Source: Mycosarcoma maydis (taxonomy: Eukaryota > Basidiomycota > Ustilaginomycetes > Ustilaginales). Taken from it: a DNA stretch of 64,000 bases. The DNA lies in NCBI RefSeq assembly GCF_000328475.2, contig NC_026482.1, forward strand, positions 868,001 through 932,000, read 5' to 3'. The position numbers were made by a program, and so were the translations under genes. The notes under the pieces are model-generated. The model did not search any database. It saw only the letters and a program-made list of their open reading frames with translations, and was not told the origin of the DNA. Positions 1,798 through 59,531 of the stretch are shown piece by piece (position 1 is the stretch's first letter; each line of letters opens with the position of its first letter).

Positions 1798-3861
1798 TTA
1801 TTCGATCAGAAACTCGCTGATGTGCGCCTTGATTTGGGACGGCTTGAGTGGCTGTGGGATGGGGTTTGGCATGTTGTGCGTGGCACAAGCGGCTTGATTG
1901 GTTTTGTGCTCAGGGGGAAGCTCGTGGTCGTCTGCGAGCGGTCTCGAGGCGATGTGGTGTGGATGTTGCGCACCAGCATGGTGAGTCGAACGGTGGATGT
2001 GGTGTAACACGGTGGACGGTAACATGGCTGGATGTGCTGACGAAATTGCGGGTGAGAGAACGAGTAAACATGCGTAGCAGAGGTGGTTGCACAATTCGAG
2101 CCAGTCTGCTTGCTCGCTACTCTGGCACGTAGCTTGCGTTTCGACAGTCTGTCGACTACGAGGCGCAGTTTCTGCTAAGGATGAGATCGTGATATCTCTC
2201 TTCCACCACCTCGCTTTCGGATGTTGGCTCGGCATTGCACAAAGTGCGCAGCCATTGATCGAGTTCCATCGTACGCAGTTGGCACTTAGCTGCGCCAGCT
2301 TGATCCCGCGTGATCCGATCCTTGGCTCGCACTGCGTCTCAGCGAGTGTCACATTCGCCATCCGGTGCGTGAGGCGCGACGATAGAGATACGCTCGGTCC
2401 AACGTCCCGAAATGCGCTCGTTGAATGCGCAACATCTGTCCAAGTGGTGGTGGGAAAGCCAGGAGCCCCGTTGAGGACGAGCTTACTGCCCGTTTTGCCG
2501 ATCGTAGTCACCGTGCTGGGTACGCCTTTTTCAAGGTTGAGGATAAACGTCTCGGTCAGCCTGGCGATAGAGCTCTTATCCATAGCTGGAGTGGAGCTGT
2601 TGGAGGCTAGGATGCCAGTGGTCGACACGGTAGGTGCGACGATGGGTTGCTCGGGCTGCAATGGATCGAGGTTGAGTTGGGACGTGTAGAAAACGACTTC
2701 TTGGAGAAGGTGCGTTTTCAATGGTCGCACGATCAGGAGGTCATCGATCCACGCTGCGTCAGATCCCTGGACGGGTATCTTGTGACCTGCACCTTTGGCT
2801 AGGTCTTCGATCAGGCGGATCGAGATCCGCGTCGCTGTGTCTCCGAGCAAGAGTGCAGCGCAATCGTACTGTTTCGCGGTGCGTCGTAGCAGCGTTGAGA
2901 TGAAAATTCGATGCAGATCTTCAATTCGGGTTCTGGCTGATGCTGCGCCTGTGCGAGGCGTATCTACGGGGCAAAGCGATGAGAAGAGGTCCTTGAGCGC
3001 CTGTCTTGGATCAGAGACGTCCGAGATACTAGCCGAGACCTGCTGGTGGTCCACATCGACCGATCTCCAAGCCACACCCTGAAATCCGCCGTCATCATCC
3101 GCACGGAAAACATCGTGCAGCTTCAGCCCGACAAAATGTAGGTCCGCACAGCCTTCCTCTTCCACCATTCTACGTGCCTGCTCCGTCCGATCCACACCGT
3201 TCGGTACCACAGCGCTGTCGTCTATGTAAAACACGTAGATCTTGCCCACTTCGTTGAACCTTCCGGCTGCGGTAGATGCACCACGCATCGATTTAGATGA
3301 GATCGAAGCTGTGCCGCTGTCGTTATCGTTGTTGTTGCTGTCGACGACTTGGCCACGAGCCTTTCTGCGCCGTGTGTCTCGGTTGGTGAAAGCGGTAGCG
3401 GGTCGAAAGTACTGCGTGGCCGAGCGCAGGAGCGCTCTTGAGCTAATACCGCCTGAGAAGGCGATGGCGATGTTAGCCGAGACATTCTCTTCGGCGTTTC
3501 CGCTGCCATTGCTGACGTGCTTGATGCGCCGTTTGGTTGTTGCTTCTCCATTTGCGGCTGGAGGAAACGTAGAAGTGGACGAGGAAAACGTCTGTCTTGA
3601 TTCGGCGGGGCTCCCAGCTGCAGAGCTCGCTGCTTTCGCTGCAGCGACGTATTTAGAGAGCCCTGCACCACGTGCATACTCAAGTCCGGCTTTTGCTTTT
3701 TGGTAGAAGACAGCAAGCGCACAAGCTTGGCAGTAGATTGAATCGCGAAGGATGGTGATCGCAGGGTTGGTTTTGCACCGAACACATGTGGTGGACGGGT
3801 GGGTCCCATGAGCCGTCACTGCGTCAGAAGGCGGTGGATCATCAGGTTGTGGACACGGCAT
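1798..3861 (-). CDS. NCS2: Cytoplasmic tRNA 2-thiolation protein 2 (Ncs2/Ctu2)
   Basis: Partner of Ncs6/Ctu1 in the cytosolic complex that thiolates wobble U34 of tRNA Lys, Glu and Gln, using sulfur relayed by Urm1. The N-terminus has two CxxC pairs (Cys26/29 and Cys44/47 of 687 aa) in the family pattern CVRC...YCQAC. Near residue 135 is FSGGISSRALL, the degenerate PP-loop of Ncs2. Further on is ALLLGDTATRISIRLIEDLA, and near the C-terminus another zinc-type pair (CALC) with LCYAC. The protein ends in an acidic/hydrophobic tail (ISEFLIE) like other family members. I chose the ATG at 3861 because translation upstream of it is not family-like. Yeast Ncs2 is shorter (about 490 aa); the extra length is low-complexity sequence. 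It diverges from KAE1, another tRNA-modification gene. Confidence 0.9.
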   Translation of the reverse strand: MPCPQPDDPPPSDAVTAHGTHPSTTCVRCKTNPAITILRDSIYCQACALAVFYQKAKAGLEYARGAGLSKYVAAAKAASSAAGSPAESRQTFSSSTSTFPPAANGEATTKRRIKHVSNGSGNAEENVSANIAIAFSGGISSRALLRSATQYFRPATAFTNRDTRRRKARGQVVDSNNNDNDSGTASISSKSMRGASTAAGRFNEVGKIYVFYIDDSAVVPNGVDRTEQARRMVEEEGCADLHFVGLKLHDVFRADDDGGFQGVAWRSVDVDHQQVSASISDVSDPRQALKDLFSSLCPVDTPRTGAASARTRIEDLHRIFISTLLRRTAKQYDCAALLLGDTATRISIRLIEDLAKGAGHKIPVQGSDAAWIDDLLIVRPLKTHLLQEVVFYTSQLNLDPLQPEQPIVAPTVSTTGILASNSSTPAMDKSSIARLTETFILNLEKGVPSTVTTIGKTGSKLVLNGAPGFPTTTWTDVAHSTSAFRDVGPSVSLSSRLTHRMANVTLAETQCEPRIGSRGIKLAQLSANCVRWNSINGCALCAMPSQHPKARWWKRDITISSLAETAPRSRQTVETQATCQSSEQADWLELCNHLCYACLLVLSPAISSAHPAMLPSTVLHHIHRSTHHAGAQHPHHIASRPLADDHELPPEHKTNQAACATHNMPNPIPQPLKPSQIKAHISEFLIE

Positions 3862-10856: not shown

Positions 10857-12668
10857 TTACAAGCCGACGTATCCATGCCAATGGTCGCGACCGGGCCGTT
10901 GGCTGGGCAGAAAAGCTTTCTTGTATACCACGATTTCATACCTGACCGGTTTGGCTTCACGTGACTGAGGCTGCTCTGTCGCCAAAGCTGTACGGGTCTT
11001 GGAAGTGGTATTGCGCCCGAGATGATCCGAGGAATGTTTCGTACGGTTGCCAACGCGATCCTTAGCTCTTTTCGCCGCTCTGACACTTCCAGAAGCTTGC
11101 CCTGCCTTGTCCGCAGATGACCGCTCCGCCTGACTGTTGGGTCTTATGCCTCCGGTGGTTGCTGACTTGCTACCAGCCGCTCCAGTACTCGACTCGCCCA
11201 GCACAGCAAACTCGAACTCAACCTCGTCGCCAGCACTCTCGTGTGCACCTTTGCTTGTCGAAGCCTTCTGCTTCTGCGCATCTGCTGTCATCTTTGCAAG
11301 CGCATCTTCGGTCTGTTGCAGAAACGTGCTTTGAGCCGCTTTGGCAGTAGGTCCTTCGTCAGCCTGTCGAGTGATGACGGTGCTGCTCGGAGCCAGCGGA
11401 CGTGTCAAATCTGCTTTCTGAGGCCCACAGGCGAGATTGAGACCGACAGAGGCGATGCTAGACGTGAAACTGGGCAAAAGCTTGACGACACCCACCGGCA
11501 GAGTATGGCTGGATGGATTCTTCGAGATCTGAGACGACGTGAGAGTGTTCGAGACATCCCCAGAGTTTTCGTTGTGCCCAGAAAGTTTCGACTCGGCAGC
11601 CTTTCCTACCGGAAGCGTCTTTCCCACCTTTGCTTCCAATGCACTCTCCTCTACAGTCTTCTGCTTTGCCTGTCCACGATTGACAAGGCTCGAGGCGGGT
11701 TCTTTGGCTGCATTGAGACTGCTCCCCCCATATACATCCGTTTTCGCTGCGAACCTGTTTCCTGTCCTGGATCTCTCCATGCCGTCCTTTGTCATCTTAA
11801 GCTTATGTCTGGACCTCGTTTCGGCGGCCGTCACAGCAGCTTCGAACGCAAGATGCTGCATCGACGTAAGAGGGTTCTCGTAATAATCAAAGAGCTGCTC
11901 ATAATATGACCTATCGTCAAAATAAGGCATGTAGCTGGTTGGATCGTCGAAAACAATTTCGGCGTCGTCGGTATCGCTGTCGTCAGAGACAAAGTCCAAA
12001 TCGTAGTTATCATCGCCATGGTCGTCACGGCGGACGTTGAGTGAGTTTATCTCATCGTCATCGCCTCGTTTGAGGCGGCGCCCTGCGTTAAAGGTCGGCA
12101 AATGCTGGAAATGCTTTTCGCTATGCAAGTAGCTGGCGTTGTAATCTTCCATATCAATATAGATCCAGCTTGGCGTGATCTTGTATCTGTCTTTCTCTTT
12201 CTCGGCCCAGTTGGGCCCAAGGAACGCGGCCAACGTGAGCTCGCCAAACTTGATGAGGGCTTCCTTTCGGCCTGGAATATCGTCGTCATATGCTGGCAGC
12301 TCGACGTCGCGAAAGTGGCGCGTCTTGTGAAGCATAAAGAGATCCTTTTGGAAGACATGGTCGGTGGCTTGGCGGGGTGTCAGGGCGTGCAGGTTGAGTA
12401 AGGGAAGATGTCTCTGAACCGGATTCAGAGCTTCTTTTTGCAGCTGCTCAAAGGGACACGTGATGAGGAGACGATTTGCGGTCATTTCGGCAGTCGAGCG
12501 CTTGTACGTTCGAAGCTCCTCAAGGTATGCCGAGGACGCGGACGGGTCGAGGACAGGGTCTGGTACAGCATCCGTCTCAAAAGGGTTGGAATAGGTATAT
12601 GGTATCGCGTCCACCATGAGCTGCTGGAAGGCTTGCAAGGCCGCAGAATCGGTCACAGGTGCCGCCAT
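10857..12668 (-). CDS. Hypothetical protein with conserved-looking N-terminal half
   Basis: 603 aa from the ATG at 12668 (MAAPVTDSAALQAFQQLMVD). Translation upstream of that ATG is unlikely to be coding, being a string of leader-like hydrophobic residues. The first 210 residues look globular, with many aromatic and charged positions (for example RYKITPSWIYIDMEDYNASY and DVELPAYDDDIPGRKE). A strongly acidic stretch follows (DDDEINSLN...DDSDTDDAEIVFDD) and then a second aromatic segment (YMPYFDDRSYYEQLFDYYEN). The C-terminal 250 residues are Ser/Ala/Lys-rich and apparently disordered, ending in a short conserved-looking basic tail (RYEIVVYKKAFLPSQRPGR). I do not recognise the family. It converges on TAF12. 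Confidence 0.8.
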   Translation of the reverse strand: MAAPVTDSAALQAFQQLMVDAIPYTYSNPFETDAVPDPVLDPSASSAYLEELRTYKRSTAEMTANRLLITCPFEQLQKEALNPVQRHLPLLNLHALTPRQATDHVFQKDLFMLHKTRHFRDVELPAYDDDIPGRKEALIKFGELTLAAFLGPNWAEKEKDRYKITPSWIYIDMEDYNASYLHSEKHFQHLPTFNAGRRLKRGDDDEINSLNVRRDDHGDDNYDLDFVSDDSDTDDAEIVFDDPTSYMPYFDDRSYYEQLFDYYENPLTSMQHLAFEAAVTAAETRSRHKLKMTKDGMERSRTGNRFAAKTDVYGGSSLNAAKEPASSLVNRGQAKQKTVEESALEAKVGKTLPVGKAAESKLSGHNENSGDVSNTLTSSQISKNPSSHTLPVGVVKLLPSFTSSIASVGLNLACGPQKADLTRPLAPSSTVITRQADEGPTAKAAQSTFLQQTEDALAKMTADAQKQKASTSKGAHESAGDEVEFEFAVLGESSTGAAGSKSATTGGIRPNSQAERSSADKAGQASGSVRAAKRAKDRVGNRTKHSSDHLGRNTTSKTRTALATEQPQSREAKPVRYEIVVYKKAFLPSQRPGRDHWHGYVGL

Positions 12669-24610: not shown

Positions 24611-25269
24611 TTGTGCGCGAGTAGCTCTTCTCAGAATACGTACGCACCGTGGATTATGGACGTTGACAAAAGTCAGCAAGTTATGAATGATGCCTCTTGA
24701 CTATTCACGGCAAATGTGTCGAGGCTGAGCTCGCAAGCTGAAGCGGTGCCAGCAACCCTTTTGGGCCCACGTTGCAACGAGTGGGATGAGTCGCGGGTCT
24801 GGTGTGTCACGGTCATCTGGCCACCTTCATCCCACACGGATGAAATTTGACAGCCACATGTATTGCACCAGTAGGTATACCCCTGTGGCGACTCTCTCCT
24901 ACGTAAGCACATGTTTCGGACAATCTTGTGCGTTTGGCGATGGTAACACGATGGGACAGCTGAGCAGCGTTGCCCTGACGTGACAATCACCAATCACGAA
25001 CCAAGTTTTACGACTGGAATCAGCACGCACCGACGGTGACTTTCGCGGCGTGTCCTCGGGAAATTTGTTTGCCAAGATCCTTTCACAATCACGAATTTCG
25101 AGAAGAAACGCCCTTCACGATTCGTGATTCAGTTGCAGCTGTAGTCACCCACGACCATAAACATAATTGAGTGGGGGTATGTGATGCATCCCTCCATCTC
25201 CATCTCCATCATCACACCAACTATCACGGTTACCCACTTCCAACACCAAAAGAACACGACTAGATCACC
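24611..25269. other. Intergenic/possible 5' exon region between membrane gene and DTD1
   Basis: Holds the Cys-containing minus-strand frame (24673-24993) that may belong to the membrane-protein gene. It also has motif copies at 24985-24999, 25087-25097 and a perfect TCACGA-T-TCGTGA inverted repeat at 25115-25127. DTD1 is transcribed away from it. Confidence 0.4.
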
Positions 25270-56694: not shown

Positions 56695-59531
56695 ATGTCG
56701 CGACTCATCGTGCGGGGCTTGCCCTCGTACCTCACCGATGCAAGGCTACGAGAGCACTTTTCCCAAAAGGGCGCTGTCACCGATGTTAAGCTCATGCGTA
56801 GGCCAGATGGCACTTCGAGAAAGTTCGGGTTCGTCGGCTACCGATCGGAACAAGAAGCGCAGCAAGCACTCGACTACTTTAACCGCACCTTCATCGACAC
56901 CTCGCGTATCTCGATCGAGCTAGCCAAGAAAATTGGTGACGAGGAGCTTGTTCACCAACGCGAAGAGCGTCGTAACAGGCGCAATGCTGGCGCAGGCCCC
57001 GAAGGCTCCGCTTCTACAAGCGATGCTCGCAAAAGAAAAGCCGACAAGTCCGACACTCAGCAAGAGGAGGGTAGTGGCAAGAAGAAGCCCAAGAAGGGTG
57101 GAGCCATCTCGTTTGAAGAATTCATGTCCGTGATGCAGCCCAAAGCAAAACGCAAAGCATGGCAGAACGAAGATGCGCTGCCCGAGCAAACGATGCAAGA
57201 CATTGTCGCGCCAGAAGAAGCTATCCAGAAAAAGGCTGCTAGGAAGGCGTTAAAGAAAGCTGACGCTGCAGCTGCTGCAACAGCGACAGCAGAGTCCACA
57301 GCAGCGCAGCCCGATTCTGGGCGCGAAGAAACACCAGAGCCAGACGCAGCGGCAAACGATGTTGGCCTCACCGACGAAGAGTACATGCGCCTTCGCATGA
57401 AGCACAGGGTCGGCACCGACCTCGACACCCTCGAACAGTCTTCCTCCGGTCCTGAGTTCGAGCAGTCGGATAACGAGAAAGACGACGACGATGCGGCGGC
57501 CGACTCGGATCCTGAGTCGGAAGACGAACCGATTCACGATCAAGGCTTCGAGTGCAAGCAGGCGGAAATGCAAAGAAAGGCTCAGCAAGCAGCCGAAAAG
57601 GACCAGAAACTGGTCGATCAGATCATGGAGAGTGGCAGGCTGTTCATTCGAAACTTGCCTTTCGCCGCCAGCGGAGACGAGATCCTGGCATTCTTTGAGA
57701 GCTTTGGCACCGTTAAGCAGGTAAGTGTAGACAACGTCCTGGCGGCAGCACAGCAACAGCGCAGTAGCCAGCACTTGTTACTACAATGATGACAGCTTAG
57801 TATAGGGACAGCAGAGCTACATGCGGTGCTGATAACCTACTGGAATCTAGATAGTAAAATGTATTCATATCTGATCCGTAACAAGTCTGGTCAACGTTGT
57901 CATCGCTGCCGTCCGTCTTGATGTGAAGGACAAGAAAGGATTGGACTGCTGACACCCCACCTTGACTTGATCGATCACAGGTTCACATTCCTCTCGACAA
58001 GCAGACCAAAGCCTCGAAAGGTCTCGCCTTTGTCTCGTTCTCGGACCCGGCGCATGCATTGGCCGCATATCGAGCCAAAGACGGCTCCACCTTCCAAGGT
58101 CGATTGCTGCATCTACTACCCGCTGTCAACAAAGACGCGTTGGCCGAGACGGGCAGCAAGAAAACAGCCACCCTCAAGCAAGCTCGAGCCGAACAGAAGA
58201 AGCAGGACGCTACCAAGGACTTCAACTGGTCGATGCTCTACATGTCTTCGGACGCAGTTGCATCGTCTATCGCCGACAGGCTGGGGGTGAACAAGTCCGA
58301 CATTCTCAATCCGGGTGCCAATGGTGGAGCGGACAATGCTGCTGTTCGGCTCGCGCTCGCCGAGACGCGCATTATTCAAGAGACGAAAGAGTTTCTGGCG
58401 CAGCAAGGCATCAATGTCGATGCGTTCCAAGGTGCAAAGGGTCCCAGGTCAGACACGACGATCCTGGTGAAAAACATTCCTTACGGCACGTCGGCCGAAG
58501 AAGTGGAAAAGCTGTTTGGCGAGCATGGTGAAGTGGATAAGGTGCTGATTCCGCCGAGTGGGACGATCGCTGTGGTAGAGATGCCTGTGGTGAATGAAGC
58601 GAGGCTGGCGTTCCGGGCGATAGCGTACAAGCGATTCAAGGGGGGGATTCTATACCTCGAGAAGGCACCTGTTGGACTGCTGACGCAGCACAAGGTGGGT
58701 GAAAAGGTGGTCAAGCAGGCGCCGATCGTGGGCAAGTCGATCGACTCGTCGAACCCAAGCGTGGATTTGGACGGCCCCGCCGGCGCCGGAGCTGGCGACG
58801 AGGCGGTGGATGGAGCTACGCTGTACGTAAAGAACCTCTCCTTTTCGACGACGGATGAACGGTTGACGGCGTTCTTCCATGGGCTGTCGGATTTCGCGTT
58901 TGCGCGAATCCAGACCAAGCCCGATCCGCGTCGACCCGGAGCGCGCCTGTCGATGGGATATGGCTTTGTCGGCTTCAAATCGATCGATGCTGCACGTACC
59001 GCGCAGAAGGCGATGGACGGTAAAGTGCTCGACGCGCATACGCTCGTCGTCACATTTGCGCGTCGCAATGCCGAAGCCTCGACCACGTCCATCTCGTCCG
59101 GCGGATCCACCAAGATCCTCATCAAGAACCTGCCGTTCGAAGCGACCAAACGCGATATCCGCGATCTCTTCTCCTCGCAAGGCCAACTCAAATCCGTCCG
59201 TCTACCCAAAAAGTTTGACAACACAACCCGAGGCTTCGGCTTTGTAGAATACTCGACCGTCCGTGAAGCTCAATCTGCCATGGAAGCCCTCAAACACACC
59301 CACCTCCTAGGCCGACATCTTGTCCTCCAATGGTCCCACCTCGCTTCCTCCACCCAGCAACAGGTTGACATGCAAAGGTCCAAAACAAAACAACACTTTG
59401 TCAACACCCATGATAACGCGGCGCGTGCAGATCCGAGCAAGAGAGCGAAGATCAAGTTGAACAGCGCCCAGATCAGCGAGGCCATCAAACAAGCAAAGAG
59501 GCAACGTGACGATGTCGACGACGACGAGTAG
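56695..59531 (+). CDS. MRD1: Pre-rRNA processing protein Mrd1 (five RRMs), two exons
   Basis: Mrd1/RBM19 binds pre-18S rRNA and is needed for early cleavages and compaction of the SSU processome. Exon 1 is 56695-57720. Intron 57721-57980 is 260 nt (GTAAGT...CACAG, phase 0). Exon 2 is 57981-59531. Splicing joins FFESFGTVKQ to VHIPLDKQTK and completes RRM2. The protein is 858 aa. RRM1 is LIVRGLPSYLTDARLREHF with FGFVGYRS; RRM2 is RLFIRNLPFAASGDEIL with GLAFVSFS; RRM3 is TILVKNIPYGTSAEEVEKLF; RRM4 is TLYVKNLSFSTTDERLTAFF with GYGFVGFK; RRM5 is KILIKNLPFEATKRDIRDLF with GFGFVEYS. That is the same five-domain plan as yeast Mrd1. A Lys/Ala/Glu linker lies between RRM1 and RRM2. The long intron contains a snoRNA candidate. 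Confidence 0.95.
57774..57885 (+). ncRNA. Intronic box C/D snoRNA candidate in MRD1
   Basis: Within the MRD1 intron, CTTGTTAC (57774-57781) and GTAACAAG (57878-57885) form a perfect 8-bp terminal stem. Box C, ATGATGA, is at 57786-57792, and box D, CTGA, at 57871-57874, both correctly just inside the stem. Element 1, ATAGGGACAG (57802-57811), is followed directly by CAGA (57812-57815), a plausible degenerate D' box. Element 2 is CTAGATAGTA (57847-57856). Both elements are antisense to neighbouring 10-nt segments (CTGTCCCTAT and TACTATCTAG, one base apart) of the highly conserved 25S/28S stretch I recall as preceding GCGAAACC. By the D'+5 rule the predicted 2'-O-methyl target is the C at position 5 of CTGTC. 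The C' box is unclear, and element 2 sits 14 nt from box D, so it may be accessory pairing. About 112 nt. Confidence 0.75.

Follow-up and report, generated by a model that had tools for sequence, protein, structure and literature searches.

In Neurospora crassa, 45 of 55 box C/D snoRNAs are intronic and several carry both D and D′ guides (PMC2780460), so that an intronic box C/D snoRNA represents expected fungal biology. The closest described case to the locus analyzed here is N. crassa CD36, an intronic snoRNA whose D′ guide (10/0 match) is assigned to Cm2299 and which has been grouped with the snR64 of S. pombe and S. cerevisiae, snoR44 of A. thaliana, and human U74 (PMC2780460, Table 1). 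CD36 is mentioned once in the main text of PMC2780460, in Table 1, where neither a host gene nor a second pairing is given.

Here we consider a 112-nt unit in the intron of MRD1 of the smut Mycosarcoma maydis, located in a 64,000-nt stretch of DNA (“the window”; contig C5, 868001-932000) from an assembly of 19,664,356 bases in 27 contigs. Judged by its sequence, this intron very probably carries the fungus’s snR64/U74-type box C/D snoRNA, and a genuine one. The unit resembles CD36 in being intronic and in having a D′ guide with 10 perfect pairs; it differs in length, as CD36 is known from a 90-nt cDNA, whereas the unit measures 112 nt including its terminal stem. Since family, D′ guide, 10-bp match, and intronic location are already described for CD36 (PMC2780460, Table 1), MRD1 as host is possibly the only new part. 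A limited literature search, which took in part of PMC3440411, returned no description of an MRD1–snR64-type snoRNA pair. The locus would extend the snR64/U74 kind by an intronic copy in a smut, with a host gene that belongs to the same pathway.

The host gene and its intron

We regard MRD1 as a sound name for the host because four separate RRMs of the protein have RBM19 or RIKEN 1200009A02 entries as matches. Specifically, the spliced product of 858 aa contains five RRM_1 stretches, i.e., the multi-RRM arrangement of MRD1/RBM19, and two RBM19 single-RRM entries together with two RIKEN 1200009A02 entries of the PDB cover the RRMs at 313-400, 494-576, 621-708, and 718-797. RIKEN 1200009A02 is presumably mouse Rbm19. 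The top PDB match was a poly(A)-binding protein (4.2e-30), and no yeast Mrd1 chain was among the best 60 of 222 PDB matches. PMC3440411 describes Rbm19/Mrd1 as a ribosome biogenesis factor that has five RNA-binding domains in eukaryotes other than animals and choanoflagellates. The splice junction, between VKQ and VHIPLDKQ, falls within an RRM, and the host intron of the original prediction (260 nt, 57721-57980, GT..AG, phase 0) was obtained again when re-derived (Table 1).

Table 1. Features of the MRD1 gene and of the snoRNA unit in its intron, with positions in the window.
Feature	Position	Strand	Remarks
MRD1 gene	56695-59531	+	two exons
MRD1 exon 1	56695..57720	+	342 codons, frame open up to GT at 57721
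MRD1 intron	57721..57980	+	260 nt, phase 0, GTAAGT...CAG
Box C/D snoRNA unit	57774..57885	+	112 nt
Terminal stem 5′ arm, CTTGTTAC	57774..57781	+	paired in MFE
Box C, ATGATGA	57786..57792	+	consensus
Guide element 1, ATAGGGACAG	57802..57811	+	pairs with CTGTCCCTAT in the L001 LSU (10 Watson-Crick pairs)
D′-like box, CAGA	57812..57815	+	one base off CTGA; directly 3′ of guide element 1
Probable box C′, GTGCTGA	57826..57832	+	one base off RTGATGA
Element 2, CTAGATAGTA	57847..57856	+	pairs with TACTATCTAG in the L001 LSU (10 Watson-Crick pairs)
Box D, CTGA	57871..57874	+	consensus
Terminal stem 3′ arm, GTAACAAG	57878..57885	+	paired in MFE
Candidate branch point, CTGAC	57949..57953	+	branch A at 57952
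MRD1 exon 2	57981..59531	+	3′ exon

Anatomy of the snoRNA unit

The terminal parts expected of a box C/D snoRNA are present, i.e., a box C near the 5′ end, a box D near the 3′ end, and a terminal stem of 8 bp that is free of mismatches and brings the two boxes together. The 112-nt snoRNA-like unit claimed earlier was thereby confirmed at 57774-57885 in its stem and in both boxes. Intron sequence flanks the unit by 53 nt upstream and 95 nt downstream, and the candidate branch A (57952) lies 67 nt beyond the snoRNA end and 28 nt before the 3′ splice site. The distance of 53 nt from the 5′ splice site is inside the main range in N. crassa, where the corresponding distance is mainly 41-60 nt, and C′/D′ degeneracy of the sort seen here is known in N. 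crassa snoRNAs as well (PMC2780460). Folding stability is only mild: z is -1.74, a fold as good is reached by 7 of 200 shuffles, and the MFE structure contains the 8-bp stem. Another candidate for box C′, GCTGATA, was dropped in favor of GTGCTGA (57826-57832), which agrees more closely with both the consensus and the Rfam alignment.

On the minus strand, positions 57846-57909 gave a weak Rfam match to the Tetrahymena snoRNA TtnuCD34 (14.2 bits at E 8.6, where gathering requires 80). This match, antisense to the intron, is most likely due to chance.

The rRNA target and the guide position

The LSU sequence used for comparison, L001 (JABSRU010000113.1), comes from a gammaproteobacterial MAG, under which it is filed as a contig of 3101 bases. 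A yeast-like 27-base pattern served to retrieve it in a scan of genome contigs, and agreement with that pattern is therefore built in. In Rfam, 702 of its bases (2400-3101) match LSU_rRNA_eukarya at 551 bits, and the consensus alignment runs through the target segment. L001 thus holds eukaryotic LSU rRNA and must be a eukaryotic contaminant in that MAG assembly.

Element 1 is the exact complement of L001 2702-2711 and element 2 that of L001 2713-2722, the two targets being one base apart; the claim of two 10-nt elements antisense to adjoining LSU segments holds, with exact Watson-Crick complementarity for both. The core of the guide target in the LSU reads CTGTCCCTA, and the wider target stretch expected of 25S is CTGTCCCTATCTACTATCTAG. 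The Rfam LSU consensus is identical to L001 at all but two of the 20 paired positions (18 of 20). The two differences (yeast-like numbers) are U2342 -> c, which ends the target of element 1, and U2347 -> g, in the element 2 target, so one pair per element could be lost against the fungus’s own 25S. When the assembly was searched for the fungus’s own 25S rDNA, two patterns had no match; an LSU query of 702 bases also came back empty, a result that is uninformative. LSU patterns had no match in viral contigs, nor had a 131-base LSU segment any in plasmids.

As element 1 abuts the D′-like CAGA, the D′+5 rule picks one C in the LSU: the base in fifth position before CAGA is G57807, and its partner in the L001 LSU is the first cytidine of a CCC. 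We take this C to be yeast 25S C2337, and the targets of elements 1 and 2 to be yeast 2333-2342 and 2344-2353, respectively. Setting the selected C at 2337 places U at 2340, 2347, 2349, and 2351, positions that we assume to be modified uridines in yeast, and we likewise assume that the yeast snR63 site is A2256. In N. crassa, CD33/snR63 targets Am2218 and CD36 targets Cm2299 (PMC2780460, Table 1). Measured against the L001 LSU, the unit itself has the guide of the snR64/U74/CD36 kind, namely a D′ guide, 10 pairs, and a C at D′+5. The offset of 38 between A2256 and Am2218 makes Cm2299 correspond to yeast 2337, and CD36 and the unit therefore share one LSU cytidine, to the extent that the numbering can show this (Cm2299 vs. 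yeast C2337). An snR64-like role at C2337, suggested at the outset as a possibility, is firmer now, since the guide adjoins the D′-like CAGA and G57807 pairs with that C.

Relation to Rfam families

In a 701-base scan, the best Rfam match of the unit was RF01513 Afu_335 (20.3 bits, E 0.45, gathering 50) and the second-best RF00530 snoMe28S-Cm2645 (18.1 bits, E 0.98, gathering 48), the latter presumably a Drosophila snoRNA. Scores so far below gathering imply no Rfam membership for the unit, only a shared target and layout; in whole-window scans, both at gathering and at E ≤ 10, the unit was not among the matches. A genome-wide search with RF01513 at E ≤ 10 gave no match and is uninformative, as 6 of 14 control genomes did give matches, none of them over the cut-off.

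Box C and AUAGGGACA are in register with the unit in both family alignments. That of Afu_335 spans all 96 positions, and the comparison with Cm2645 leaves out 35 family positions that are absent from the printed alignment. The CAGA of the unit aligns with CUuA of Afu_335 and CUGA of Cm2645, and its GTGCTGA with AUGAUGU of Afu_335. The likeness to Afu_335, from A. fumigatus, extends to box C, spacing, the AUAGGGACA guide before D′, the C′ region, and a further element able to pair with the adjoining LSU stretch—though this further element has only 8 nt and is shifted by 3-5 nt, and D′ is CUuA vs. CAGA in the unit. With Cm2645 the unit shares box C followed by AUAGGGACA and D′ (CUGA in Cm2645). 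The score of the alignment between the unit and the Afu_335 consensus was reached by 0 of 3000 shuffles with boxes C and D held fixed, by 19 of 3000 with the guide fixed as well, and by 60 of 3000 when D′ and element 2 were fixed too. These sequence comparisons suggest a modest resemblance to Afu_335 beyond the constrained parts.

Chance expectation and genomic occurrence

Shuffling the interior of the unit (stem, box C, and box D fixed; n = 200,000) produced some 10-mer antisense to L001 in 43,455 cases and two 10-mers adjacent in the rRNA in 23, such that a lone 10-mer says little and an adjacent pair says much. The combination of RTGATGA, CTGA, and an 8-bp stem occurs at one place in the window, on either strand, and at none in 30 shuffled windows, for which 2-base blocks were moved. 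With a 6-bp stem, the same box descriptor has three places in the window (shuffled mean, 0.13). The two further places lie at 11371-11421 (+), without an obvious snoRNA layout, and at 25129-25215 (-), in a GGAGAT-repeat stretch; both are probably chance occurrences.

A genome-wide pattern, TGATGAN{4,20}ATAGGGACA, has a single place in the 19.66-Mb genome, the MRD1 intron (reversed control, 0); having been written from that very site, it is informative only on the absence of a second one. A search with the whole 112-nt unit returned the self-match and no second copy in the genome at E ≤ 0.001. The looser pattern TAGGGACAN{0,2}CNGA has six genome places (reversed control, 16), among which only the one in the MRD1 intron has RTGATGA ≤30 nt upstream; one other, L006, is preceded by the variant GTGAAGA. 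Adjoining one of six TAGGGACA sites, around position 1501 of L007 (minus strand; contig C20 near 518181), we observed a tandem AAAATT run followed by GGGTGAGGGTTTGGGTTAGGG, which is telomere-repeat-like.

Element 2 and competing explanations

The original prediction had combined a guide with an accessory pairing. The guide stands, as element 1 at D′; for element 2, an accessory role is plausible, with weaker support. No D-like box follows element 2 at the proper distance, which is why it does not qualify as a guide; its target is the ten rRNA bases that begin one base beyond the guide target. Elements and targets both run 5′ to 3′, i.e., they are non-colinear, which requires the 35 nt separating elements 1 and 2 to loop across. 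From the sequence evidence, element 2 is probably an accessory rRNA pairing, which we prefer over a chance match; extra rRNA pairing by snoRNAs was reportedly treated by van Nues et al. in 2011. We consider it unlikely, though a serious contender, that a real snR64-type guide is accompanied by an element 2 that matches repetitive rRNA by chance and plays no accessory role. The target segment holds CTATCTA twice, and the alternative 7-bp register so made possible eases a second match. In Afu_335, the equivalent complement (rRNA 2341-2348, yeast-like numbers) is only 8 nt long, has a shifted register, and overlaps the guide target by 3 nt; even so, it lies at the same place and overlaps the element 2 target. 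With an rRNA stretch that was picked after the match had been seen, 267 of 20,000 shuffles were as good as the Afu_335 complement, vs. 19 of 20,000 shuffles of the D′-D region for a match of the grade of element 2, i.e., 10 perfect pairs one base from the guide target.

An accessory pairing is also preferred over a second modification, in which element 2 or the D-side region would guide, e.g., Um at the 2347 equivalent or act on some other target; this we judge very improbable. Yeast Um2347 falls inside the element 2 target, yet the base that pairs with U2347 is not followed by a D-like box 5 nt further on. Several N. crassa snoRNAs do have D plus D′ double guides (PMC2780460), whereas the D-side region here offers nothing convincing as a guide to the LSU (at best 10 pairs to L001, 3 of them G-U). 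It is likewise very improbable that the unit represents the relic of a snoRNA, decayed or inactive, or that the intron looks snoRNA-like by chance. Sub-threshold or absent Rfam matches and the mild folding stability would fit such a unit, and a more diverged guide may exist elsewhere in the genome to stand in for a relic. However, the constrained parts are intact (the mismatch-free 8-bp stem, consensus C and D, and a correctly placed 10-nt guide), and TGATGA with an exact ATAGGGACA within 4-20 nt occurs nowhere else in the genome, so there is no obvious substitute of that form.

Proposed pathway and implications

Under the preferred reading of a genuine guide with an accessory pairing, the unit would be transcribed as part of the MRD1 pre-mRNA and freed after splicing by debranching and then exonuclease trimming down to the terminal stem. 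Joined by box C/D proteins, it would direct, through the D′ guide, 2′-O-methylation of that C in 25S which corresponds to yeast C2337. Element 2 would pair with the next ten rRNA nucleotides and stabilize the complex or aid pre-rRNA remodeling, with no methylation of its own, and the D-side guide looks vacant against the LSU sequence at hand.

A wider proposal, which we put forward tentatively as possible rather than likely, is that smuts as a lineage have conserved the MRD1 intron as the site of their snR64-type snoRNA and that the snoRNA forms a two-helix rRNA clamp. If so, hosting by MRD1 would mean that a 25S methylation guide and a pre-rRNA processing factor are supplied in a coupled manner, and two non-colinear 10-bp helices—guide and accessory—would hold a contiguous rRNA stretch of ~20 nt. 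This two-helix arrangement, in outline common with Afu_335 of A. fumigatus, would possibly have been selected as a pre-rRNA folding clamp. The presence of adjacent 10-bp complements in one snoRNA makes accessory rRNA pairing testable by comparison.

A third pairing, in which GGAATCT (57842-57848) would bind LSU 2324-2330 shortly before the guide target begins, was considered and dropped, as 487 of 20,000 shuffles match under strict pairing and 3624 of 20,000 with G-U allowed. Its counterpart in Afu_335 is G-U-rich, with 18,703 of 20,000 shuffles (strict) and 928 of 20,000 (G-U).
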